From: a virus
IMG/VR virus record: IMGVR_UViG_3300020473_000055
Location: 1-41,780 of that record
Length of the DNA: 41,780 bases
Direction: 5' to 3' (one strand)
Shown here piece by piece: positions 6,690 through 31,719 of this stretch; the first letter of the stretch is position 1, and each line of letters opens with the position of its first letter. The position numbers and the translations under genes were made by a program. Under the pieces are notes generated by a model that made no database searches, was not told the DNA's origin, and saw only the letters and a list, made by a program, of their open reading frames with translations.

Positions 6690-9600
6690 ATGATACAAAC
6701 TGGGTTTGAAAAGAGAGTAACTGTTCAGCAAGTTATTGAAAATCAACTTCCTGAATTTGTGCTCTCTGAGAGTCCAAAGACTGTCGATTTTTTAAAGCAA
6801 TATTACATTTCACAGGAGCATCAGGGTGGTGCTTCTGATATCGCAGTTAATCTGGATCAATATCTAAAGGTAGATAACTTTACACCAGAGGTAATTTCTG
6901 GTGAAACAACACTATATTCTGATATTGATACTTCAGATACTACTATTCAGGTATATTCTACTAAAGGATTTCCTGATGAGTATGGTTTATTCAAGATTAA
7001 TGATGAAATCTTTACTTATACTGGAGTAACAACTAATACCTTTACTGGCGTAATACGTGGATTTAGTGGAATTACAAGTTATAGGACTGATTTAGACGCA
7101 GAAGAACTTGTTTTTAGCGACACTAGTGCTGGAAGTCATACTGCTAGTACTAAGGTTCAGAACCTAAGTGCACTATTTTTAAAGGATTTTTATAGAAAGT
7201 TAAAAGTAACTCTTACACCAGGACTTGAAGATGTAGATTTTCAGGCAGATCTTGATGTTAATAACTTTATTAAGGAAGCAAGAAGTTTATATGAGTCAAA
7301 AGGAACAGAAGAATCCTTCAGAATCCTATTCAATGCTCTCTATGGAGTAGAACCTAAAGTTGTTGATTTAGAGCAATACCTACCCAAACCCTCCTCGGCA
7401 GAGTTTTTAAGGAGAGAATTACTAGTTGCTGAAAGAATTTCTGGAAATCCTGCTAATTTAGTTGGACAAACTATTAGAAAATCAACAGATTCTGCTACTC
7501 AAGGTGCTGTTTCTGAAGTTGAAGTCTTTACTAGATCTGGAATTAGTACATATTACAAGATTGGACTGTTTGTTGGGTATAGTGATAATGCGTTAATTGA
7601 AGGTACATTCGAAGTTCAACCAAAAACTAAGGTAATTAATCCAGTTTCTGTATCAGATTCTATTATTACAGTTGATTCTACCATTGGATTTGGTGCAACT
7701 GGAACATTAGTATCTGGTAAGAACATTATTACCTATAGTAGTAAGAGTGTTAACCAGTTCTTAGGTTGCCAGGGTGTAACTGTTGGTATTGGTACAGCAG
7801 ATGAGATAAGAACGGATGAAGTATTTGTTGGATATGAGAATGGAGATTTAACTAAAAAGGTAGAAATACGTCTTGGTGGTGTTTTATCTGACTTTAAAAC
7901 TACGAATGATGTTTTAGATACTTCAGAGGAGCAGATTTTATATGTGAATCATGTAGGTGAAAAGATAAAATTATCTGAAACTGGTTCTACTGATAAGGAA
8001 TTATTTGCTAATTCTTGGATTTACAATACTAGTTGTAGATTTGATGTTGATGAAATTAATACTGGTTCGTCAACTATTACATTAAAATCAGATATTGACA
8101 AATCACAATTAAAAGTTGGCGATAAAATTGATATTTTATTAGGTGATACTGAAAATATAGCACTTACTAATGCAACTATTGGTTCAATTGATAAGACTCT
8201 TAAGCAAATTCAGTTGAATAATATGACTGGATTTAATTATAATGCCCTTCAGACATATACTATTAGGAAAAAATTAAATACTGCTACTAGTTCTGGGACA
8301 TCTATAATTTATGGACAGAATAAAGTTACTACAGATATTCAAAACGTTTATAATGAGAATGATGAAGCATTCTATGTTGCTTCAAACTCTTTACCGTCAT
8401 ATGATATAACAAAATCTACTGTTAAGTATACTGTTTCTACTGGAACTGCAGGTGCATTGGATGGTTATAACAGTATAATAGAGCAATATCAAATTATTTC
8501 TTTTACAGAACCAACACTAGACTTTATCACTGGAGACAAAGTTGTTTATAAAGCAGAAACTACACCTCTTAAGGGATTGGAAGAAGGGGAATATTATGTT
8601 GAGGTATTAAATGGTGGTAAAATTAAATTATATGAATCTAGAGGTTTAATTGAAACTAATGGAACTATAGTTGATGGTTCTGTAGTTAATAATGCTAAAG
8701 GATTTGTTTCAGATGGAACTAATAATCATACTTTTATTTTAGCAAGTCAAACTGACGATTCCATACATCCACAGAAACTTCTTAAGAAATTCCATCATTC
8801 ACAGAATCTTAAAACAGGGGAAGGTACTAAAACCAGTACTGGTTCTCTTGGGATGTTGATTAATGGTGTTGAAGTTGTTAGTCCAAAATCATTAGATAAA
8901 ATTTATTATGGTCCTTTAGATAATATTACTGTTTATAATAATGGAACAGATTATGATGTACTAAATCCACCAACTATTGAAATTGCTAGTGGATTAGGTA
9001 TAACTGCTCTTGCTCGTGCAGTTGTAAGAGGTAGTGTTAAGGAAGTTCTAGTAGATCGTCAGGATTTTGACGTAGATGATGTTAAGAGTGCCACTATATC
9101 TGGTGGAAATGGTTCTGGAGCAGTCTTAGAACCGATGGTAGGTGTCAGACAACGTGAAGTTAGGTTTGACAGTCGTGATGACGTTGCTGGTGGTGGAGTA
9201 AGTTTATCTCTTGATACAATTACCTTTGTACAAGATCATAATTTTGTCAATGGAGAACCTATTGTATATGATTCAAATGGTAATACTGGTTTAGGTACTT
9301 TTGTTAATAATGCCATCTATTATCCAGAGGTTATTAGTAATACCAAGATTAAAGTATATGCAACTAAGACTGATTATGATAATAAAACCCTTGCTTTAGA
9401 TTTTAATGGTATAACTGGTGGACAAGGTATTCATAAGTTTAAAAAGTCAGAATATACCAAAACCTTAAGAGGAATAAGAGTTATTGATGGTGGTTCTGGG
9501 TATACTAATAGAAAATTGATTGTTGATCCAGTAGGTGTCAATACTGTAACTAATATTATTACCTTTAATAATCATGGATTTAATAGTGGAGATAAAGTTG

Positions 9601-12600
9601 TTTATTCTGCTGATACTGCAGCTATAGAAGGATTGTCAACATCAACTCAGTATCAAATTATTAAATTAGATAATCATTCATTCAAACTTGCAAATGCAGG
9701 TGTTGGTGGAACAATAACAAGTAATTATGAGAGAGGAAATTATGTTGGTTTGGGATCTACTGGTGTTGGATATCAAAATTTTGCATATCCTGATATCACT
9801 TTAACTGTTAATGCAACAATTTCTGGTGTTGGAACTGCTACTCAAGCAGTAGGAGTAATAACTGCAACACCTATAATAAGAGGTGAAGTTATTGATGCTT
9901 ATCTTTATGATAAGGGTACTGGATATGGTTCATCTATTATAAACTTTGATAAGAGTCCAGTTGTAAAGGTTAAATCTGGTAAGGATGCTGAATTTAAACC
10001 AATTATCATTAATGGTAAAGTTGATCAAGTAGTTGTACAGTATGCTGGTGTTGAGTATACATCCCCTCCCGATTTAACCTTTATTGGTATTGGTTCTGGT
10101 GTTGGTGCTAAAGCAAGAGCAATTGTTGAAAATGGAAAAGTAACTAATGTTTCTATTATCAATCCAGGTGTTAATTATAGTTCAAATACTGGAGTTGCAG
10201 CAACTTCTGTAGGACGTAATGCATTTATTGAAGCAGATATAAGAGAATTGACTGTAAATAACCATAAGAGGTTTGGTAATGAGATATTAGTTCAGAATGT
10301 CAGTGGTTTGCAATATGGATATGTGGGACATTCTACAGCAATTGGTAGCAAACTAGGTGATAAATTAGACACACACTCACCAATTATAGGATGGGCATAT
10401 GATGGAAATCCAATTTATGGTCCTAATGGATATTCTGATCCAGAAGATGCTAACTCTTCCGTAAAATATGTAAATACTGGATATATTTTATCAAGTTCTG
10501 ATGTTGTAGATAGACCTCCATTTAAGATGGATGGTACAGTATTTGATCAAGGATTCTTTATTGAAGACTATAAATTTGATAATTCAGGTGATTTAGATGT
10601 ACATAATGGTAGATATACCAAAACACCAGATTTTCCAAATGGTGTATATGCATATTTCGCTGGAATAACCACTGTAAGTAGAGAAGCAAAATTCCCTTAC
10701 TTTATCGGTGATACATATAGATCTAAATTGATTGAACAAGGTATAGATCAAAGTTTTGATTTTAATAACTCAGATTTAATTAGAAATACTCTTCCATACA
10801 AATCTGAAGATTTAACTGCTGATAATGATTTCATCTCAGAACCTTATGAAATAGTACAGCAAAGAACAATTGTCGATGCTATAAGTAAAGGAACTGTTGA
10901 TTCCTTCTTAATCAATCAACCTGGTGATGGGTATGCTGTCAATGATATTCTACAATTTGATAATAGTGGAACAAATGGTGGTGGATTAAACGCCTATGTT
11001 TCTAGAGTTGGTGGAAGATATATTAGAAGTGTTGATACTGAAGTTATTACTTATCAAGATTCATTATTAATTTGGGATAATTCAAATCAAATTTCAGTGC
11101 ATGTTTCACCTACACATGCTCTACTTGATGGTGATACTGCTGTTGTTTCTGGAGTATCTACATTTGTTGCCAATTTAACAGGAGATCATAAAATCGGAGT
11201 TACTTCTGAGAGTGCATATCTAATTGCTCCAGTTGCTCATAATACAGTTCTTGGATTTGTAACTGACATATATGCTTCATCTATACCAAAGAATATTTCT
11301 ATTGGATCTACAGTTGCTATAGGTGTAACTAATCAAGAAATAGTTAAAGTTAATAATATATTCCATGATAGAAAAGTTCTAAGAATAGAAAGACTAGTTA
11401 ATCCAGGTATTGGACATACAGAGTCTGAATCTATATCTAAACTTGCTGATACATTCACAATACCACTTAATAGTGAGTATTTTGATTCTAGAAAGAATGA
11501 TAAGGTATATTTCAACCCACTTGAGGCAGTTGGTATTGGTACAACTGCTGGTTTTGAACAGAGTAAGAAGTATAGAATTGGTGATGTTCAGTATGACATC
11601 TCAGTTCCACATCAAAGCATTTATATACCAAATCACCCATTTACAGATAATCAGGCGGTAACATTTACTAGTAGTACACAACCTATTAAGAAGAGTAATA
11701 AGAAAACTGGTGGATTGAGTAATCTCCCTACCACTGGATTGTATGTTATTAATAAGGGTAAGGATTATATTGGACTTACTACATTCAGAGATCGTGCAAA
11801 TGCAAGTGCAGTAGGATTTAATACTGGTGGATTCTTCTTTAGATCATTTACATCCAATGGAGACAGTCGTGATTGGAAGTATTCTTTAGAGTCTAATCAT
11901 ACACAACAAACTGCAAGAATAGAAAGAATAACAGGTACTGTTGTTACTGGTGCTCCTTGGGAAGGAACTCAAATAACCAAATCAGCTTTTGATGATGGAC
12001 ATTTATTGGCAAATGGTGATGAAATTAAATTATCAGTCAAATCTAATCAATCTGTTGGTATTGGGACTTCTGCTGCGGTAAAACTTTCTTATAATTCTGA
12101 AAATGATAAACTTATAGTAGGGTTAACTACATTTACAGAAAGTGTCTTAAATGTAAATAAAAATGAAATAAGTCTTACTTCACACGGATTTAAAACTGGT
12201 GATAAAGTTTTCTATAACAGTACAGTTGTCCAACCAATAACTGGATTAGGAACAGGTTCATATTATGTTTATAGAATAGATGATGATAAGTTCCAATTAG
12301 GACAAACTAATTATGATGTTGTTGCAAAACCTCCAACAATAATAGATCTTTCTGCTCCTGTTTCTCCATCACCTGCTGGAGTGATTGGACATCAAATTTC
12401 TAAGGTTAATCCTCGTATTGAAGTTGTTGAAAATAATAATTTAGTATTTGATGTTTCTGATACTTCATTGTCTGGATATAGTTTGAAGATTTATCATGAC
12501 AAAGAGTTTAAAAATGAATTAGTATCTGTTGGTGGAACAGTTACTAACTTTAGTGCATCTAGTCTTGGTGGTGCAGTTGGTTGTGGCACAACATCTACAT

Positions 12601-15600
12601 TAACTTTAAATTATGATACTTCATTACCAACCAAACTTTATTACAATCTAGAAAGGGGTGGATATATTAGTACATCTGATACAGAAGTTGTTAATAATTC
12701 TGAAATACTCTTTGTTCCTAGTGTTTATAATAATACTTACTCAGTTTCTGGAATAGGTAGTACTACCTTCCAGATATCCCTTAAATCGGTTCCAGAGACA
12801 CTATCTTATACTCAGACTACATCTAGTCAGTTAAAGTACTCTACGTCTTCTACGACTGCTAGGGGTGGTGTTGAGTCTATAAGAGCTACTTCTGGTGGAC
12901 TTAATTATAAGAAATTGCCTGAGTTTACTACTATTACATCCACACAAGGTGTAAATGCAGATATAATACCAAAATCTTCTACTATTGGTAGAATAAAGGA
13001 AGTTACTATTGAAGATGCTGGTTTTGATTATTCTGCAGATAAAACATTAAGTCCAGAAGTCTTTATTTCTCCAAATATTACTGTAGTTGATAGAAACTCT
13101 CTTACTGGTATTAATATACTTTCTGGAGGATCTGGATATACTATTGCCCCAGATGTTGTTATTATTGATCCAGATACTAATGAACCATATCCCGATAGTT
13201 ATATAACGGCAGAAATTCAATCATCATCACTTACTAGTGTTGAAATCCTACAGACTCCAAAGGGATTATCAGATAAAGTTAATACTGCCTATACGGTTAA
13301 TAACTCAAATGGAGTTGGTATTACTAAGATTCAATCTACTGGTGTTGGAACTGCTTTCCTTACTTTAGAAACTCCTATTTCCAACTTCACAACAGCACCA
13401 TTTGCTATAGGTGATAAAATCTTCATTGAAGGTATTAGCGTACTTGGTGGTATTGGAACTACAAGCACAGGATACAATTCTCCAGAAAATGGATATTCAT
13501 TCTTTACGGTTGAAAGTGTTGGTGCAGCAAATCCAGTTATAATAGGTATCGGACTTACTGAAGTAACTTCATATGCTGGTATTGCAGTTACTGATACTAA
13601 CGGATATGGTTTGGCAATCAATAAAAACAATTATCCGACATTTGAAGTTATTCAAACACCTGAGCAATTTATTCTAGAAGAAAGATTATATGTTCTTCAG
13701 GGTTCTACATATGTTCTTCAAGATCTGTATATCACTAAGAACTTAAATGATCAAATTAAAATTAGAGGTACATACGACTTAGTTGTTGGTGATCAAATTC
13801 GTGGTAAGGAATCTGGAACGATAGCTACTATAAGTGAAATTGTAGAGAATAAAGGAAGGTTTAAGATAGATTATTCCTTAAGACAGGATAAGGGATGGAA
13901 TGATAATATTGGAAAATTGAATGAAGATTTCCAAGTTCTTCCTGATAACGACTATTATCAGAATTTATCATATACTGTTAAGAGTCCTGTGTTATGGGAG
14001 GATTTAATAAACCCTGTAAATAGACTCTTACATACAACAGGATTGAAGAATTTCTCTGATACTGGAATAACAACTGCTACAAATATTTCCGCTAAAGTTC
14101 CTGTAGATGCTGGTAGTTTTGCATTAATTGATATTGTTGGTGAAAAGAGAGTTGATACTGTAAGTGATTTTGATTTTGCAATCGATCTTGATGCAACTGG
14201 TGGTAAGTCTAGGTTTGTTAAATTCCAGAACAAGAGACTGTCTGATTATATCAATAACAGTTCTAACCGTGTTCTTCCAATAGATGATATTTCAGATGGA
14301 TTCAATAAGGTATTCACAGAGAATAATTTCTTTACTAACCTCGATACAATAAGTTCTGGTAGTGGATATAATCGTTATTTGGTTCAAATAGTTAATCCTA
14401 ATAATAACCAAAGACAAGTAACGGAATTAATAACTCTCACTGATAATGATAATAACATCTACACATTTGAAAAAGGTTCAATTGGAGTAGAAACAGGTGG
14501 TTCTACTAACTCTTACAAGGTAGATAGATTAGGAGACATTGTAGGGGATAGTGATACATCTCAATTAGTATTCAATCCAAAAAATCCATATGATTATGAT
14601 TATGATTTAAAAGTTATTAAAAATACCTTTAATACATCAAATACTGGTATCGGAACTACTAGTTTTGGATTTGTTGATGTAATTGGTTCTAATAACCTTG
14701 TTGGTGTTGGATTAACAGAAACATTATTCTCTGCTACTGCAAATCAGAATGAGGCATTCTTTGCTAATATTGAGGTTACAAATACTCAAACATTTGATAC
14801 AAGATATGTTGAACTTTACGTCGATCAAGATGGAACAGATACATATGTTTCTGATTTTTACTTAGATAATAAAGATGGTGCTACTGCAAACTTCATTGGT
14901 ACATTTGGTGCATCAATAAGTGGCGGTGTTGTTAAGGTTAACTTCACCAATAGTACAGAATCTGCTGGCGTTTATGTTAAATCAAGAGCAGTTGGATTTG
15001 GTGTTACCTCTGCTGGTATTGGAACATATAGGTTCTTAACTAGTGGGCAATCAGGTGGATCTGAGAAAACTGCAAGATATGAGAGTAAGTTTGCATATAC
15101 TCTTGCTCCTGCAACTGCAACACAAGTCTTTAGTGTTGCTAAAGCAGATGTAAGTAGTATTAAGTCAGTTGTTAAGGTTGGATATGGTGTTACATCAGCA
15201 TTACATCAGTTACTTTCAATTCATGATGGAACAGATGTTTATACCACACAATACCCATTTGTATCAGTTGGTAGTACTAGTGGTATAGGTACATTTGGTT
15301 CTGAATTTAGTGGTTCTAATTTAATATTGAAATTCTATCCTGATGCTGGAATTAATAATGTAGTTTTAATTCAATCATACAGTGAAATAATACAAACAGA
15401 GACTGATTTAATCAATATACCAGAGGATCTTAATTATGGAACTTTAACAGAAAATATTATAACTGCTCCATATAATGGTGTTAATGAAAATAGGATTAAT
15501 GTTACTGAATTTGATGCCAATTATAATAAGATTCCAATCTTTACTAAAACATTTAATCCAGCAACTACAACTCTTGTAAACTTAAGTACAGGAACATTCA

Positions 15601-18600
15601 CTATCAAAGATCATTTCTTTGAAACTGGAGAAGAGTTGGAATATGAAGCAGTTTCTACTTTCAGCAATATAACTGCTGATGCTATGGAAATGTCTAATGG
15701 TAGTGATTTGCCAGCAACTGTTTATGCTATCAAAGTTACTAATGATGAGTTTAGACTTTCATTAACATCTAGTGGATCTGCAATTACATTCAATAATGCT
15801 GGAGCAGGTAATGCTCACACACTTACTATGGCTAAGAGAGCAGAGAAAACTCTTCTTTCTATTGATGGTATTGTACAAACACCAGTAGCAAGAACTAATG
15901 TTGGATATGCTCTTACCAATAACTACGGTAATATAAGTGCTACAGATACAATTGCTTCTTTGGTTGGTATTTCTTCTATATTACCAGGAGATATTCTTAA
16001 AATTGATAATGAGTATACCGAAGTTACAAATGTTGGATTAGGAACTACTGCTGTTGGACCAATAACTGGTAGTGGAGCATATAGTCTAGTTGAATTAAAT
16101 AGAGGATTTGTTGGATCAACTGCAGCAGTGCATAATGATCAAGCAACTGCTCAGGTTTATCTTGGTTCATATAATATTGTTAAGAGTAAACTTCATTTTG
16201 CTGCACCTCCAACTGGAAATAACGTAAATGATATAGATGTTACTACTAACTTAGCAAATGCAAGATCTACATTTGGTGGTAGAGTTTATCTAAGACAAGA
16301 TTATACACTGAATAAGATATATGATAATATTTCCAAAGATTTTACTGGAATAGGAGCAACTTATCCATTAACGGTTAATGGTTCAGGTACAACAGGTATT
16401 GAGACTGGAAGTGGATTGGTGTTTATTAATAACATGTTCCAAACACCAACTACATTGAATAATCTTGGAAATACATATGATTTCATTGATGGCAATACTG
16501 CTACTAAGGTAAGATTTACTGGAATAACAACTGCTGCTAATAACAATTTGGTAATATCTGATTATGATGTAAACCAGAATCAGTTACCAAGGGGAGGACT
16601 CATAGTTTCTCTTGGTTCTAGTATTGGACGTGGATATGCTCAACCAGTAGGTGCTTTAGTAACTTGTGGACACTCAGGTGGTGGTATTAATACCATTGGA
16701 TTTACAACTACAAGTGATATTACAACCCCATTTGGTTCTGGATATAGAGGAAATCTTCCTGGAAACAAAGTTTCTATTGCTATAACTGATACTTCTACTT
16801 CTGGAATAGTAACAGCAAAAGTTAATGCATATATTGGTGCTGGTGGAACAATAACTGGATTTGAAATATTAACTGCTGGTAGTGGATATGCTAATCCTAT
16901 TGTCCAGATGCCTTCTCCTTCATATAGTAACTTGGAAATTACTGGTGTATCAAGACTTGGTTCTGGTATGACAGCAGATACTGGAAAGGGATTATTATTG
17001 GATATTGAGGTTGGACCTACTGATGCAATTCCAGTTGACAATAAGTTTGGTGATGCTTCAGATCTTATTGAGGCAAATACCTCATTTATTTCTCAAGTAG
17101 CAGCGAAAAGGATGTTTGATAGATGGAACAATGGTTCCAACTCATCATATAGTTATCCTTCTGGATTTACAGAACAAGATTGTATTGATGACGTAGTAGA
17201 TGTTTTAGATGCTACTGCACATAACCTTAAGTTTGGTGGTAATGATAAGACTTATGATGCTGCGAATTTATTCGTAACTGGCGTATATTCTACTCCTCCA
17301 CCTGTTACTGGTGAGGAAGAGCAAGTAATTTATGCCCTAATGGAAGCCAGAGATATGGCAATTAGAGCAATGAGAAATCAGAAGATTTATACTCATCTTG
17401 GTGCTCAATATGCTCACACATATACAGGTGGTACAGTTCAAGAGGCTGTTTGTAAAGGTGGTGATTATCCACACACATATATTCCAGCAGATTCTGCTGC
17501 TAATGCAATTAATGGTTCTTTGAAACCAACACAAGCTGTCTATAATGGACAGGATGGTATGTTGCAACTAACATTTGCTAGTGCTCATGGTATTGCTAAT
17601 TCTTCAAATGTAACTATTGCAGATCATTCATTAGTATTCACATGTGCTAGAGATGGACATGCTACTAAACATGCATATCCAAGACCATCTGATCCTGCTT
17701 CAGGTACTAATTTAGCTGCTATTGTAAGTAGTCCTACAGTATTGACAGTAAATGTTGGAACCTCACCGTTAAGATGGGAGCCTGTTATGGCTGGTTCTGG
17801 TGCTGAAGCAACATCATATGATGCTAAGACTGGTGAATTAGTACTTAATATTGGTAGTGATCATGGATTATATGCACCAACAACATTAAATGCACCTACA
17901 GCAGCAACTTATGCACCAACAACAGGTGTTTTAAGACTCACTATTGCATCACATGGTTGTTCAGTTGGTTCTTATATTAAGATTGATGACAATTCATTAA
18001 CATTCACATGTGCTAGAGATAATCATACTACTCAACATTCATATCCTCGTTCTACTGATCCTGTAAGTGATGTATGGTTGCCAGTTCATCAGATATCGGC
18101 AAATAGAATATGGGTTAATATTGGTAAATCTCCTGATACTTCTGCACATACATTTGTATCAGCAACTGCTGGTGTTAAGAAGGCAAATTCTGGTATTGGT
18201 ATTGGAACCAGTAAATTAGGATTTAAGTGTACTAGAGACGCTACTGCTGCTAACCCACAAGGTGTAGCACAGCAATTATACCCACGTCCAGGCGATCCAT
18301 TCTCTTGGAATAAGAAACAGATATCAATCGCATCTACAACTACTTCTTCAGTTACAGTTAACGTTGGTGTTTCTTCTACATCACATACAAACTTAACTCA
18401 ATTTACTGATAGTACAATTACTACAGATACTTCTGGTGGTGCTGCATGTGCTACAGTTGAATCTGCAATTCATACTCTTGTTGGAATAGTTACTGATGTT
18501 GTTAAGACACATAATGCTAATGAATTACCAGCATCAAGGACATTAGCAAGTATTGAGACATATGAAGTTAATGACTTTAAGATTGCCAGACCTGGTTACG

Positions 18601-20249
18601 GTTTCAGAAAAGGTGATGTATTCAAACCAGTAGGACTTGTTACTGATAGAACTCTATCTACACCTCAAGCTGACTTCTCACTTACAGTAATTGATACATT
18701 TAGTGATTCATTTGCTGCATGGCAGTTTGGAGAATTGGATTATATCGATTCAATCGCAGAATTGCAGAATGGTGATAGAGTTAGATTCCCATTAAGATAT
18801 AATGGAGATTTACTAAGTTTCGAAACAAATAGTGATGAAGTTGACTTAAATGCTCTTCTACTCATCTTTATTAACGGTATTATGCAGCATCCAGGGCAAC
18901 ATTATACTTTTGATGGAGGAACATCATTTGTATTCGCAGAACCTCCAAGTGCTGATTCTAAAGTTTCAATATTCTTCTACAGAGGAACTCGTTCAACTGA
19001 TAGTGCATATGTAAACATTGATGAAAGCGTGAAGGTTGGTGATACTATAGAATTGAAAACAACTCTTGATGTTCAAGGACAAGATCCTAGAATAGTCTCT
19101 GGTATTTCTAGTTCTGATAAAATAAGAACCAGTATATACACTGGATTGAATATTAATGAAACTGATTACAGACTTTTAGATTGGACTAAACAGAAAATTG
19201 ATAGAAATATTGAAGGAGAAGCAGTTTACAAGTCTAGAGATTCAATTGAAGGATTAGTTTATCCAACTGCTAGAATTATTGACAATCTAGCATCATCTGG
19301 AATATCTTCAATATATCTTGATAATGCTCAATTCTTTAACTATGAAGAAAATGAATCTGCTGTTGTTATAGTAAGTTGTGATGCATTAGTAATGCAAAAT
19401 GCAAATCCAGTTGCAGCAGCAGTTACAGCAACAGTTTCTGCTGCAGGAACTATAGGTGCATTGACAGTTGTTAGTGGTGGTTCTGGATATATCGGTTCTG
19501 CTGTTACAGTTTCAATCGCTAGACCTATAGGTGCTGCTGTTACCTTCACTGGTGGAGTGGGTGTTTATACTGGAATAGCAACTGCAACTATACCAGTTGT
19601 AAATGGTTCATTATCTGGAACAGCAAATATAACAAGTATTGGTGTAGGGTATACACATTCAACACCTCCAAATGTACTTGTACCAATTGAGACTACTCCA
19701 TTAGATGAAACTATCAGTGGTATTACTACCGTTAGAGGATTCTCTGGTATTGTTACTGGAATTACTACTTCACATAGTGGTAGTGACTTATTCCTCAACT
19801 TTATGATTAATAAAGGTGCTGATGGACAAAATATTACTGCTGATTTGAAGGTTGGATATCCAATTTACATTAGTGATACTAATGTAGGACATGGAGTTAC
19901 TTCAATTGATGGACATGAGAATTCTATTGTTAGTATCGGAACAACCTTCATAGATAATATCTACAAGGTTCATTCCTTTACTAGATTTGATAACAACTCT
20001 GGTAAATTCTCAGTTAGAGTTAAAACTGGTTCTAATGTTGGTTTTGCTTCTGCATATGCTGGTATAAACACTGGTGGAATTGGAAGATACTCTTGGGGTG
20101 TATTGGAATCAACTGATACACGATCTGGTGGAATAGGAATTGCTGTTACAGGTAACATTCTTTCATCAGGAATAAGCACATTCCCAACGATTCAAAGAAG
20201 AGGATATGGAATACGTTCCAACGGTGCTCTTAGAAAAGATCTTGGGTAG
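6690..20249 (+). CDS. 7: giant baseplate wedge protein gp7-like, modular with YHYH motif
   Basis: The protein has 4519 residues; T4 gp7 has 1032. Position after gene 6 and the N-terminal block (1-240, with ENQLPEFVLSESPKTVDFLK and SLYESKGTEESFRILFNALY) identify gp7. The rest is repeats: six HxF..GD..VxY units with conserved turns near residues 615, 855, 967, 1652, 1837 and 2980; many GxGY units; at least thirteen G[IVL]GT tetrapeptides; and three CxRD..YPRxxDP units (cysteines 3652, 3774, 3847). A YHYH-type motif HSPIIGWAYDGNPIYGPNG starts at 1229. One unbroken frame covers 13.5 kb. The gp7 N-terminus should anchor it in the wedge; the extension is probably peripheral and might touch fibres or the host. 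The stop abuts a late promoter. Confidence 0.85.
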   Translation: MIQTGFEKRVTVQQVIENQLPEFVLSESPKTVDFLKQYYISQEHQGGASDIAVNLDQYLKVDNFTPEVISGETTLYSDIDTSDTTIQVYSTKGFPDEYGLFKINDEIFTYTGVTTNTFTGVIRGFSGITSYRTDLDAEELVFSDTSAGSHTASTKVQNLSALFLKDFYRKLKVTLTPGLEDVDFQADLDVNNFIKEARSLYESKGTEESFRILFNALYGVEPKVVDLEQYLPKPSSAEFLRRELLVAERISGNPANLVGQTIRKSTDSATQGAVSEVEVFTRSGISTYYKIGLFVGYSDNALIEGTFEVQPKTKVINPVSVSDSIITVDSTIGFGATGTLVSGKNIITYSSKSVNQFLGCQGVTVGIGTADEIRTDEVFVGYENGDLTKKVEIRLGGVLSDFKTTNDVLDTSEEQILYVNHVGEKIKLSETGSTDKELFANSWIYNTSCRFDVDEINTGSSTITLKSDIDKSQLKVGDKIDILLGDTENIALTNATIGSIDKTLKQIQLNNMTGFNYNALQTYTIRKKLNTATSSGTSIIYGQNKVTTDIQNVYNENDEAFYVASNSLPSYDITKSTVKYTVSTGTAGALDGYNSIIEQYQIISFTEPTLDFITGDKVVYKAETTPLKGLEEGEYYVEVLNGGKIKLYESRGLIETNGTIVDGSVVNNAKGFVSDGTNNHTFILASQTDDSIHPQKLLKKFHHSQNLKTGEGTKTSTGSLGMLINGVEVVSPKSLDKIYYGPLDNITVYNNGTDYDVLNPPTIEIASGLGITALARAVVRGSVKEVLVDRQDFDVDDVKSATISGGNGSGAVLEPMVGVRQREVRFDSRDDVAGGGVSLSLDTITFVQDHNFVNGEPIVYDSNGNTGLGTFVNNAIYYPEVISNTKIKVYATKTDYDNKTLALDFNGITGGQGIHKFKKSEYTKTLRGIRVIDGGSGYTNRKLIVDPVGVNTVTNIITFNNHGFNSGDKVVYSADTAAIEGLSTSTQYQIIKLDNHSFKLANAGVGGTITSNYERGNYVGLGSTGVGYQNFAYPDITLTVNATISGVGTATQAVGVITATPIIRGEVIDAYLYDKGTGYGSSIINFDKSPVVKVKSGKDAEFKPIIINGKVDQVVVQYAGVEYTSPPDLTFIGIGSGVGAKARAIVENGKVTNVSIINPGVNYSSNTGVAATSVGRNAFIEADIRELTVNNHKRFGNEILVQNVSGLQYGYVGHSTAIGSKLGDKLDTHSPIIGWAYDGNPIYGPNGYSDPEDANSSVKYVNTGYILSSSDVVDRPPFKMDGTVFDQGFFIEDYKFDNSGDLDVHNGRYTKTPDFPNGVYAYFAGITTVSREAKFPYFIGDTYRSKLIEQGIDQSFDFNNSDLIRNTLPYKSEDLTADNDFISEPYEIVQQRTIVDAISKGTVDSFLINQPGDGYAVNDILQFDNSGTNGGGLNAYVSRVGGRYIRSVDTEVITYQDSLLIWDNSNQISVHVSPTHALLDGDTAVVSGVSTFVANLTGDHKIGVTSESAYLIAPVAHNTVLGFVTDIYASSIPKNISIGSTVAIGVTNQEIVKVNNIFHDRKVLRIERLVNPGIGHTESESISKLADTFTIPLNSEYFDSRKNDKVYFNPLEAVGIGTTAGFEQSKKYRIGDVQYDISVPHQSIYIPNHPFTDNQAVTFTSSTQPIKKSNKKTGGLSNLPTTGLYVINKGKDYIGLTTFRDRANASAVGFNTGGFFFRSFTSNGDSRDWKYSLESNHTQQTARIERITGTVVTGAPWEGTQITKSAFDDGHLLANGDEIKLSVKSNQSVGIGTSAAVKLSYNSENDKLIVGLTTFTESVLNVNKNEISLTSHGFKTGDKVFYNSTVVQPITGLGTGSYYVYRIDDDKFQLGQTNYDVVAKPPTIIDLSAPVSPSPAGVIGHQISKVNPRIEVVENNNLVFDVSDTSLSGYSLKIYHDKEFKNELVSVGGTVTNFSASSLGGAVGCGTTSTLTLNYDTSLPTKLYYNLERGGYISTSDTEVVNNSEILFVPSVYNNTYSVSGIGSTTFQISLKSVPETLSYTQTTSSQLKYSTSSTTARGGVESIRATSGGLNYKKLPEFTTITSTQGVNADIIPKSSTIGRIKEVTIEDAGFDYSADKTLSPEVFISPNITVVDRNSLTGINILSGGSGYTIAPDVVIIDPDTNEPYPDSYITAEIQSSSLTSVEILQTPKGLSDKVNTAYTVNNSNGVGITKIQSTGVGTAFLTLETPISNFTTAPFAIGDKIFIEGISVLGGIGTTSTGYNSPENGYSFFTVESVGAANPVIIGIGLTEVTSYAGIAVTDTNGYGLAINKNNYPTFEVIQTPEQFILEERLYVLQGSTYVLQDLYITKNLNDQIKIRGTYDLVVGDQIRGKESGTIATISEIVENKGRFKIDYSLRQDKGWNDNIGKLNEDFQVLPDNDYYQNLSYTVKSPVLWEDLINPVNRLLHTTGLKNFSDTGITTATNISAKVPVDAGSFALIDIVGEKRVDTVSDFDFAIDLDATGGKSRFVKFQNKRLSDYINNSSNRVLPIDDISDGFNKVFTENNFFTNLDTISSGSGYNRYLVQIVNPNNNQRQVTELITLTDNDNNIYTFEKGSIGVETGGSTNSYKVDRLGDIVGDSDTSQLVFNPKNPYDYDYDLKVIKNTFNTSNTGIGTTSFGFVDVIGSNNLVGVGLTETLFSATANQNEAFFANIEVTNTQTFDTRYVELYVDQDGTDTYVSDFYLDNKDGATANFIGTFGASISGGVVKVNFTNSTESAGVYVKSRAVGFGVTSAGIGTYRFLTSGQSGGSEKTARYESKFAYTLAPATATQVFSVAKADVSSIKSVVKVGYGVTSALHQLLSIHDGTDVYTTQYPFVSVGSTSGIGTFGSEFSGSNLILKFYPDAGINNVVLIQSYSEIIQTETDLINIPEDLNYGTLTENIITAPYNGVNENRINVTEFDANYNKIPIFTKTFNPATTTLVNLSTGTFTIKDHFFETGEELEYEAVSTFSNITADAMEMSNGSDLPATVYAIKVTNDEFRLSLTSSGSAITFNNAGAGNAHTLTMAKRAEKTLLSIDGIVQTPVARTNVGYALTNNYGNISATDTIASLVGISSILPGDILKIDNEYTEVTNVGLGTTAVGPITGSGAYSLVELNRGFVGSTAAVHNDQATAQVYLGSYNIVKSKLHFAAPPTGNNVNDIDVTTNLANARSTFGGRVYLRQDYTLNKIYDNISKDFTGIGATYPLTVNGSGTTGIETGSGLVFINNMFQTPTTLNNLGNTYDFIDGNTATKVRFTGITTAANNNLVISDYDVNQNQLPRGGLIVSLGSSIGRGYAQPVGALVTCGHSGGGINTIGFTTTSDITTPFGSGYRGNLPGNKVSIAITDTSTSGIVTAKVNAYIGAGGTITGFEILTAGSGYANPIVQMPSPSYSNLEITGVSRLGSGMTADTGKGLLLDIEVGPTDAIPVDNKFGDASDLIEANTSFISQVAAKRMFDRWNNGSNSSYSYPSGFTEQDCIDDVVDVLDATAHNLKFGGNDKTYDAANLFVTGVYSTPPPVTGEEEQVIYALMEARDMAIRAMRNQKIYTHLGAQYAHTYTGGTVQEAVCKGGDYPHTYIPADSAANAINGSLKPTQAVYNGQDGMLQLTFASAHGIANSSNVTIADHSLVFTCARDGHATKHAYPRPSDPASGTNLAAIVSSPTVLTVNVGTSPLRWEPVMAGSGAEATSYDAKTGELVLNIGSDHGLYAPTTLNAPTAATYAPTTGVLRLTIASHGCSVGSYIKIDDNSLTFTCARDNHTTQHSYPRSTDPVSDVWLPVHQISANRIWVNIGKSPDTSAHTFVSATAGVKKANSGIGIGTSKLGFKCTRDATAANPQGVAQQLYPRPGDPFSWNKKQISIASTTTSSVTVNVGVSSTSHTNLTQFTDSTITTDTSGGAACATVESAIHTLVGIVTDVVKTHNANELPASRTLASIETYEVNDFKIARPGYGFRKGDVFKPVGLVTDRTLSTPQADFSLTVIDTFSDSFAAWQFGELDYIDSIAELQNGDRVRFPLRYNGDLLSFETNSDEVDLNALLLIFINGIMQHPGQHYTFDGGTSFVFAEPPSADSKVSIFFYRGTRSTDSAYVNIDESVKVGDTIELKTTLDVQGQDPRIVSGISSSDKIRTSIYTGLNINETDYRLLDWTKQKIDRNIEGEAVYKSRDSIEGLVYPTARIIDNLASSGISSIYLDNAQFFNYEENESAVVIVSCDALVMQNANPVAAAVTATVSAAGTIGALTVVSGGSGYIGSAVTVSIARPIGAAVTFTGGVGVYTGIATATIPVVNGSLSGTANITSIGVGYTHSTPPNVLVPIETTPLDETISGITTVRGFSGIVTGITTSHSGSDLFLNFMINKGADGQNITADLKVGYPIYISDTNVGHGVTSIDGHENSIVSIGTTFIDNIYKVHSFTRFDNNSGKFSVRVKTGSNVGFASAYAGINTGGIGRYSWGVLESTDTRSGGIGIAVTGNILSSGISTFPTIQRRGYGIRSNGALRKDLG

Positions 20250-29874: not shown

Positions 29875-31719
29875 ATGGCTTCTCCTGTAATACAGTTTAA
29901 GAGAGGTGCTTTCGGTAGTTTGCCAGCGTTGAAAGCAGGGGAACCCGCTTTCACGAATGACAAATATGATTTTTATATTGGATTAGATAATAACTCTTCA
30001 AACAACAAGTTTTTCGGTTCACACCGATATTGGTTGAAAGAAACCGCTACTGCTGGTTCAGGATTGAACTTAGTTGAGGGAACAAATAACGGTGTTCATG
30101 CTTTTACATTAAAAGCACCTGCCTCATTAGCAGCATCTTATGATGTCACCTTCCCAAATGCACAAGGTGCTAACTCAGCAATATTGCAGAATAATGGTTC
30201 TGGTGTATTAAGTTGGACCGCTGCACCAACTTTTACGGGTGCAATTACAACACAAGATACTACAGAGTCATCTTCTAGTACTACTGGTGCTTTAATAGTT
30301 GCTGGTGGTGTTGGTATCGCAAAGAGTGTCCATGTTGGAGGAGCAACTTCAATCACTGGAAACTTATATGTTGGTGGGCAATCTGAATTTATTGGTATTG
30401 CTACATTCCGTGGTGGAACAATAAGATTTGGTGATTCGGATGCTGACGACGTTGTAGTTGGTGGTGAATTTGCATCTAATCTAGTTCCAACTACTAGTGT
30501 TGCATATGATTTAGGTACTAGTGCTAAGAAGTGGAGAGATTTACATGCTGCTAACTTAAATGTTGGTATTATAACTGCATCAACATTTGGTGGATTTACA
30601 CATCTTGTAGGTGCTGCAACTACTGCAGTTACGACATTTGTAGCAAAAGTTGTAACTAAAACTGCTGCACATAGGTATCATCAGCAGGGTAGTAGTAGTG
30701 GTTATACAATTGATGGAATAGAATCTCCTTTCTTAACTTTAATTCCAGGTGTAACATATAAGTTTGATCAGGCAGATTCATCTAACAGTGGACATCCAAT
30801 TCGTTTTTATCTGGATGCTGCTAAGAGTCATGCATATACAACTGGTGTAACAGCATCTGGTACTCCAGGTAACGCTGGTGCATATACACAGATTGTAGTT
30901 AGTGACGAAACTCCTAATACATTACATTATCAGTGTTCTTCACACTCATTAATGGGTAATGCAGTAACTACTGGTTCTAATGCAGTTAATACTCCTCATA
31001 ATGCGGTATTCAAAGGAGATGTAGATTTAGGTGATGCAACTGGCGACACTATTACTGCTACTGGTAGATTTGATAGCGATTTAGTTCCTTCTACTGATGG
31101 TGCTAGAGACTTAGGTGCTTCTGGATTAGAATGGAAGGATTTATTTATTGATGGTACAGCAAACATTGATGCATTAGTTGCTGACAGTGCAAAGATATCA
31201 GATTTAACTGACAATAGAGTTGTTATTGCTGGTACTGCTGGAGAACTAGAAGACAGTGCAAATCTAACATTTGATGGTTCGACACTTGCACTTACTGGTG
31301 CTCTTACAGTTTCAACTAACGCAACCATAACTGGTAATCTAACAGTTCTGGGTACACAATCAATCTTAAACACAGAAACGTTAAAGGTTGAAGATAGTTT
31401 GATTGAAGTTGGACTTGTTAACAGTGGTGGTTCACTTGTAGCACCAAGTTCAGATGCCAACATTGACGTTGGTATTATAATGCACTATTACAGTGGTTCT
31501 GCTAAGAAAGCTGCTGTATACTGGGATGATTCTGTTTCTAGAGTCGTTGTTGGTTCAGATGTTTCTGAATCTACTAGTGTTCTAACTGCTGCTGCATATG
31601 CTGCATTGGAAGTTGGTTCATTATGGATTAAAGATTCTGTTGGGCAATCAGAGACTATTGGAGTCAGTGGAGGACAAAGAATTCTGCATAATATCACTGT
31701 AGATGGTGGGTCGTTCTAA
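29875..31719 (+). CDS. tail-fibre-like protein with cupredoxin-like segment
   Basis: The protein has 614 residues. The N-terminus (VIQFKRGAFGSLPALKAGEP) is common to cyanophage fibre-like proteins. Repeats follow: TGALIVAGGVGIAKSVHVGG, and two copies of F.S.LVP....A.DLG....W.DL at about 198-224 and 398-424. Between them, residues about 285-370 look like a cupredoxin: VTYKFDQ, SGHPIRF with H307, then YQCSSHSLMG with C354, H357 and M360. C-x2-H-x2-M matches the ligand loop of amicyanin/pseudoazurin type-1 copper proteins. The C-terminal part ends in GGQRILHNITVDGGSF, with no visible autocleaving chaperone. It is likely a host-contact fibre; copper binding is inference. It has its own late promoter. 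Confidence 0.85.
   Translation: MASPVIQFKRGAFGSLPALKAGEPAFTNDKYDFYIGLDNNSSNNKFFGSHRYWLKETATAGSGLNLVEGTNNGVHAFTLKAPASLAASYDVTFPNAQGANSAILQNNGSGVLSWTAAPTFTGAITTQDTTESSSSTTGALIVAGGVGIAKSVHVGGATSITGNLYVGGQSEFIGIATFRGGTIRFGDSDADDVVVGGEFASNLVPTTSVAYDLGTSAKKWRDLHAANLNVGIITASTFGGFTHLVGAATTAVTTFVAKVVTKTAAHRYHQQGSSSGYTIDGIESPFLTLIPGVTYKFDQADSSNSGHPIRFYLDAAKSHAYTTGVTASGTPGNAGAYTQIVVSDETPNTLHYQCSSHSLMGNAVTTGSNAVNTPHNAVFKGDVDLGDATGDTITATGRFDSDLVPSTDGARDLGASGLEWKDLFIDGTANIDALVADSAKISDLTDNRVVIAGTAGELEDSANLTFDGSTLALTGALTVSTNATITGNLTVLGTQSILNTETLKVEDSLIEVGLVNSGGSLVAPSSDANIDVGIIMHYYSGSAKKAAVYWDDSVSRVVVGSDVSESTSVLTAAAYAALEVGSLWIKDSVGQSETIGVSGGQRILHNITVDGGSF

Follow-up and report, generated by a model that had tools for sequence, protein, structure and literature searches.

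Does the middle of a tail fibre encoded by a marine T4-like phage contain a genuine cupredoxin domain and, if so, would that domain bind copper? The question arises from the original prediction for the window (the whole 41,780-nucleotide stretch of viral DNA analyzed here), in which His307, Cys354, His357 and Met360 were noticed within the motifs HPIRF and CSSHSLM of a beta-rich, fibre-borne segment, and a real or decayed cupredoxin domain was proposed. Translation of positions 29875-31719 on the plus strand places all four residues correctly. Judging from the predicted fold and the conserved ligands, we conclude that residues ~260-370 probably constitute a real, non-decayed cupredoxin domain in which the ligand set of a type-1 copper site is intact, and that this domain is a movable module of virion proteins in marine T4-like phages. 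The features of the fibre gene are the following.

29875-31719, plus strand: tail-fibre-type protein of 614 aa that carries the domain (phrog_30742 tail fiber, 6e-60, and gene context)
29890-29982, plus strand: fibre N-terminus with a weak Mtd_N match below the cut-off, common to sister fibres without the domain
30430-30543, plus strand: first copy of the fibre repeat (residues 186-223), preceding the domain; 47% identical to the second copy (E 1e-11)
30652-30984, plus strand: predicted cupredoxin domain, approximately residues 260-370 (homologue scans, family alignments, PDB profile matches, AlphaFold2 and Foldseek)
30793-30795, plus strand: His307, proposed first copper ligand, in HPIRF just before a strand (conservation and model)
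30934-30936, plus strand: Cys354, proposed thiolate ligand, the sole Cys of the protein (conservation and composition)
30943-30945, plus strand: His357, proposed second His ligand (conservation)
30952-30954, plus strand: Met360, proposed axial ligand with the amicyanin spacing C-x2-H-x2-M (conservation and Foldseek matches)
31030-31143, plus strand: second copy of the fibre repeat (residues 386-423), following the domain; 47% identical to the first copy
31315-31716, plus strand: conserved C-terminal fibre segment, residues 481-614, common to the S-B43, S-B05 and DSL-LC02 fibres without the domain

The fibre gene, its context and the ligand motif

The 41.8-kb virus record contains a structural gene module of the T4-like phage type and encodes gp6, gp7 (4519 aa), gp8, a DUF4815 structural protein, a fibre-assembly protein and the fibre, together with gp13, gp14, the tail sheath stabilizer, the terminase subunits, the tail sheath and the tail tube. 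The fibre gene lies between the genes for the DUF4815 protein and the fibre-assembly protein on one side and gp13/gp14 on the other, with gp6, gp7 and gp8 upstream and gp13-gp19 downstream, and the gene order around it is the same in DSL-LC02; these tail-gene neighbours and the profile match identify the product as a phage tail fibre. Because the terminase is 85% identical to that of Prochlorococcus phage P-SSM2, and the nearest matches of gp14 and gp6 likewise come from cyanophages or from single-cell marine viruses, the host is likely to be a picocyanobacterium. The gp7-type baseplate protein (positions 6690-20249) is much longer than its T4 counterpart, and its match to phrog_2885 spans the first ~3350 residues.

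Within the 614-residue fibre, Cys occurs only at position 354 and Met360 is one of two internal Met residues. When the protein is shuffled, C-x2-H-x2-M turns up at a frequency of 8.5e-5 and the full pattern H-x3-F...C-x2-H-x2-M at 5e-6, so the ligand motif is more than a chance occurrence. Across all six frames of the window, C-x2-H-x2-M is found only once more, as an unrelated match shortly past a stop codon. The original prediction attributed this loop to both amicyanin and pseudoazurin; the former attribution stands, whereas the pseudoazurin loop is C-x2-H-x4-M. The title of PDB entry 2vmj describes a C-x2-H-x2-M loop, CTPHPFM, grafted into nitrite reductase. In many cupredoxins, the first His is followed by Asn, and the window domain has Pro at that place.

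Conservation of the ligands and the nature of the site

Among 113 relatives (non-redundant at 82%), the first His is present in 112, Cys in 111, the second His in 112 and Met in all 113; thus, the His, Cys, His and axial Met of a type-1 copper site occur in the canonical order in 98-100% of the homologues; a lack of such conservation was one of the outcomes that would have refuted the original prediction. Phe297 is likewise kept in 113 of 113. In a set of 59 sequences (non-redundant at 80%), Met and the second His are invariant where aligned, and Cys and the first His are each lost twice. Only F, H, Y, C, H and M form invariant columns in a 61-row alignment whose identities go as low as 25%, and few positions in the family are as well conserved as the four ligand residues. 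The peptide patterns of some of the locus searches contain the Cys-His motif, which biases the result in favour of conservation; in the 20 domain copies found by alignment alone, without peptide patterns, all four ligands are retained in 18. One of these 18, from Synechococcus phage S-SKS1, has a longer C-x4-H-x2-M loop, a length change that resembles those among known cupredoxins. In cyanophage S-SSM4, the wedge protein encoded after gp9 (L083:4244-7708) contains a domain copy with a markedly longer insertion between the first His and Cys.

The rare copies that have lost ligands, mostly several at once, include copy 1 in gp7 of P-HM2, that of PSS2, and the second copies in two other loci (L226 and L241); joint loss of several ligands in decayed copies is what the loss of a metal site predicts. 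This pattern bears on the possibility, which we regard as unlikely though far from negligible, that the cupredoxin fold serves solely as a structural or adhesive scaffold, with the Cys, His, His and Met packing the core or the loop of a domain that is metal-free in the virion. Ephrins and some phytocyanin-like proteins use the cupredoxin fold without copper, phages assemble in the cytoplasm, which contains nearly no free copper, the domain is placed amid shaft repeats, and ligand-free copies occur in otherwise similar proteins. Yet precisely the four ligand positions are near-invariant while the rest of the domain drifts to 25% identity, the ligands mostly vanish as a set rather than singly, and cupredoxins without copper have usually lost them.

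That the site binds Zn or Fe instead appears improbable, as does its operation as a switch based on redox or thiol chemistry, or a disulfide by which Cys354 would link subunits of the fibre trimer. As the sole Cys of the protein, Cys354 could form a disulfide between chains only, and metals are known in tail fibres, namely, the iron at the HxH sites of T4 gp37 (cited in PMC11705849). Against these possibilities, a check of the His positions found no HxH motif in the fibre protein, which sets it apart from fibres of the T4 gp37 type, the conserved Met and the amicyanin spacing suggest copper, and the cupredoxin topology is expected, from the fold, to bury Cys beside the two His residues. Copper binding by the domain is the reading that we retain: judged from sequence, it is likely, and the putative type-1 copper site is most likely displayed intact on the virion.

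Predicted fold and relationship to copper proteins

The AlphaFold2 model of the window domain, built on the 61-row alignment, has a pLDDT of 93.5 and is an all-beta sandwich of nine strands, in agreement with the Greek-key beta-sandwich of approximately eight strands that characterizes cupredoxins, so that the beta-rich character noted originally is borne out. In the model, the first His lies just before strand 60-63, Cys is at the end of strand 100-105, and the second His and Met are in the next loop; relative to the strands, these positions suit a cupredoxin site. A Foldseek search of the PDB retrieved, with probability 1.00, rusticyanin (E 3.5e-4), nitrite reductase and a pseudoazurin carrying an amicyanin loop; pseudoazurin itself, also one of the top hits, and laccases were matched as well. 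Similarity to solved cupredoxins is modest by TM-score (about 0.4-0.55, with rmsd mostly 5-7), suggesting that the modelled domain is a divergent branch. A gp9-type relative that is 38-39% identical to the window domain yielded an AlphaFold2 model with a pLDDT of 95.5 and structural matches of the same classes, plus plastocyanin and amicyanin. The predicted structures of both proteins thus agree with the proposed fold, the best PDB matches being cupredoxins.

At the sequence level, a single-domain phmmer search of the PDB produced no match, and copper proteins were reached by family profiles only. The window domain does not match Pfam PF00127 (Copper-bind), its phage relatives score at most 16.4 bits (cut-off 21.2), and the matches of relatives to NCBIfam models are far under the cut-offs. 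With the amicyanin equivalog TIGR02657 (cut-off 110.2 bits), only 4 of 21 relatives match, and weakly (best E 0.0052), the first member scoring 14.6 bits. In sequence terms, the window domain is not an amicyanin and is amicyanin-like in the loop only. A match of the window domain to the NrdI flavodoxin (17.7 bits, cut-off 27) was dismissed as chance: the fold differs and the relatives are without this match, a single member of the family profile A3 excepted.

A significant relationship to cupredoxins is nevertheless evident from three comparisons. With the A3 profile as the query against the PDB (E<=10), 45 of the 48 matches are copper proteins; the best E-value (6e-6, 6hbe) is the sum of two weak stretches and is not relied on alone, the best single-domain value being ~0.003. 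Alignment of the family with marine plastocyanin/pseudoazurin-type proteins by hhalign gives an E-value of 1.4e-6, with Cys and the second His aligned. Finally, two marine bacterial sequences, a Bacteroidetes ORF (L258) and a secreted-type 148-aa protein of Prochlorococcus MIT 9201 (L259), score 32.3 and 30.0 bits, respectively, with PF00127, above its cut-off of 21.2, and also match A3 at about 1e-21 and 1e-16, so that by these profile scores they complete a sequence chain from the phage domain to Copper-bind. The MIT 9201 protein is a small secreted-type cupredoxin distinct from plastocyanin. In phage S-CAM4, a domain 45% identical to that of this protein is located at the C-terminus of a ~680-aa protein.

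It is thus very improbable that the domain is an unrelated immunoglobulin-like beta-sandwich that acquired a C-x2-H-x2-M loop by chance. The range of the TM-scores, the failure of the window sequence itself to reach a Pfam copper family and the listing of the MED4-213 relative as an Ig-domain protein would all fit such a scenario, but the Foldseek and profile matches are nearly all to copper proteins rather than Ig domains, the bridging sequences pass PF00127, and the full motif is rare among shuffled sequences; this reading is disfavoured. Capture of the domain from a host plastocyanin (petE), the origin suggested in the original prediction, would suit a relative of cyanomyoviruses with a P-SSM2-like terminase and a family profile that reaches plastocyanins, but has hardly any probability left and was rejected, given that Prochlorococcus plastocyanins score 6-9 bits with the profile, compared with 14-17 for SAR86 pseudoazurin-like proteins and 59 for the other secreted Prochlorococcus protein, and that the tree clade of the window domain includes domains of giant Prochlorococcus ORFs.

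Distribution and modularity

Scans of viral contigs detected hundreds of homologues of the cupredoxin domain. The window-domain query identified it in 246 phage records and the gp9-form query in 352, all of the latter being cyanophages or other marine phages; a megablast search of phage records with the domain region produced no match. The carriers include phages of Synechococcus, Prochlorococcus, Pelagibacter and Methylophilales, along with a small number of unnamed marine phages; P-SSM2, S-SSM5 and Bellamy are culturable examples. Among the annotated carrier proteins are gp7, gp9, gp10-like proteins, tail fibres and further components of the virion. In bacteria and archaea, one genome scan revealed 61 loci, almost all in marine organisms, the carriers including surface or secreted proteins of marine bacteria. 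A clearly cellular example is a SAR86 protein with a lipoprotein-like start that is encoded amid metabolic genes. Giant Prochlorococcus ORFs also carry the domain, and one of these adjoins an apparent cytidylyltransferase gene. In three Prochlorococcus single-cell genomes (L230, L233 and L234), ORFs of >2000 aa contain a domain of the same sub-family as the window fibre; their products are probably surface-exposed or secreted.

In the window fibre, the domain sits between the two copies of the fibre repeat. Three Synechococcus phages, S-B43, S-B05 and DSL-LC02, have fibres with the same two ends as the window fibre but a different middle, from which the domain is absent. In the phylogenetic tree, where many forks are unresolved and some bacterial records may be phage contigs, phage and bacterial records alternate, and the supported branches force at least 8 label changes. 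These observations fit a module that has been moved between genomes.

Comparison with known systems and proposed function

The window domain resembles amicyanin/pseudoazurin-type proteins (PF00127, TIGR02657) in the predicted fold, the location of the first His before a strand in H-x3-F, and the C-x2-H-x2-M loop that ends the next-to-last strand. Unlike these small periplasmic electron carriers, it is embedded in a phage fibre, and its sequence is too diverged for the curated models. Rusticyanin and the domains of copper nitrite reductase (1rcy, 2dv6, 6hbe) provide the best fold or profile matches, but these proteins have much larger loops or are multi-domain enzymes, whereas the fibre contains one ~110-aa domain, in which a type-2 copper site is not evident. 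The form found in cyanophage gp9, which carries no cupredoxin annotation, belongs to the same family and has the same ligands and the same kind of virion location; it is C-terminal in gp9, in contrast to the mid-fibre position in the window, and identity is about 40% or less. The nearest functional precedent is provided by the iron sites of T4-type fibres and the phage Trojan Horse hypothesis (PMC11705849). As there, the window fibre would have a metal site that may serve in recognizing the host and in the cycling of metals in the ocean, but it differs in fold, ligands and probably the metal.

The fold and the site are known; that marine phages regularly employ them in baseplates and fibres is undescribed in the open literature that we searched. 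No description of a cupredoxin or blue copper domain in phage tails, baseplates or virions was found there, some of the searches yielding only papers with unrelated titles and abstracts, and a paper retrieved with 'copper-binding' and 'tail fiber' deals with a viral nirK gene rather than a fibre domain. None of the curated libraries searched names the domain as a cupredoxin, the labels being only 'tail fiber' or 'baseplate'.

Host contact, stability and metal acquisition are the inferred candidate roles. We propose a mechanism, the steps of which are listed in falling confidence. The site would bind copper, as Cu(I)/Cu(II); since phage assembly happens in the copper-poor cytoplasm, the metal would be taken up from seawater or the lysate. 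The metal would lock the loop that bears Cys, His and Met and so stabilise the surface-exposed beta-barrel. The barrel, decorating the fibre shaft, might help the fibre to touch the cell surface, at which the same domain is found, both in hosts and in other marine bacteria, within very large proteins that are probably secreted. Stabilisation of the barrel is a tentative prediction, and so is a share in surface contact, which we consider rather less likely than not. We do not expect the domain to transfer electrons, since the virion has no evident redox partner. Distinctly doubtful is the broader notion that marine T4-like phages as a group use copper-loaded cupredoxins on the baseplate and fibres to engage the host, either as a copper Trojan Horse or by pairing like with like, the partner being the same domain in giant proteins that Prochlorococcus and other marine bacteria probably expose at their surface; were this true, virions would also represent an ocean pool of protein-bound copper.

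The domain is present in hundreds of genomes of cyanophages and other marine phages, including in the conserved connector gp9. If copper is bound, a large share of marine virions would be copper proteins, with consequences for how the phages that kill Prochlorococcus, Synechococcus and SAR11 recognize their hosts, for the speciation of copper in seawater, and for annotation; a vague notion of metals in phage tails would become a question testable at the bench.

Among the BFVD matches, 'beta-sandwich' proteins of Pithovirus LCPAC302/304 and Marseillevirus LCMAC201/202 match the predicted fold (E 2e-7 to 6e-9).
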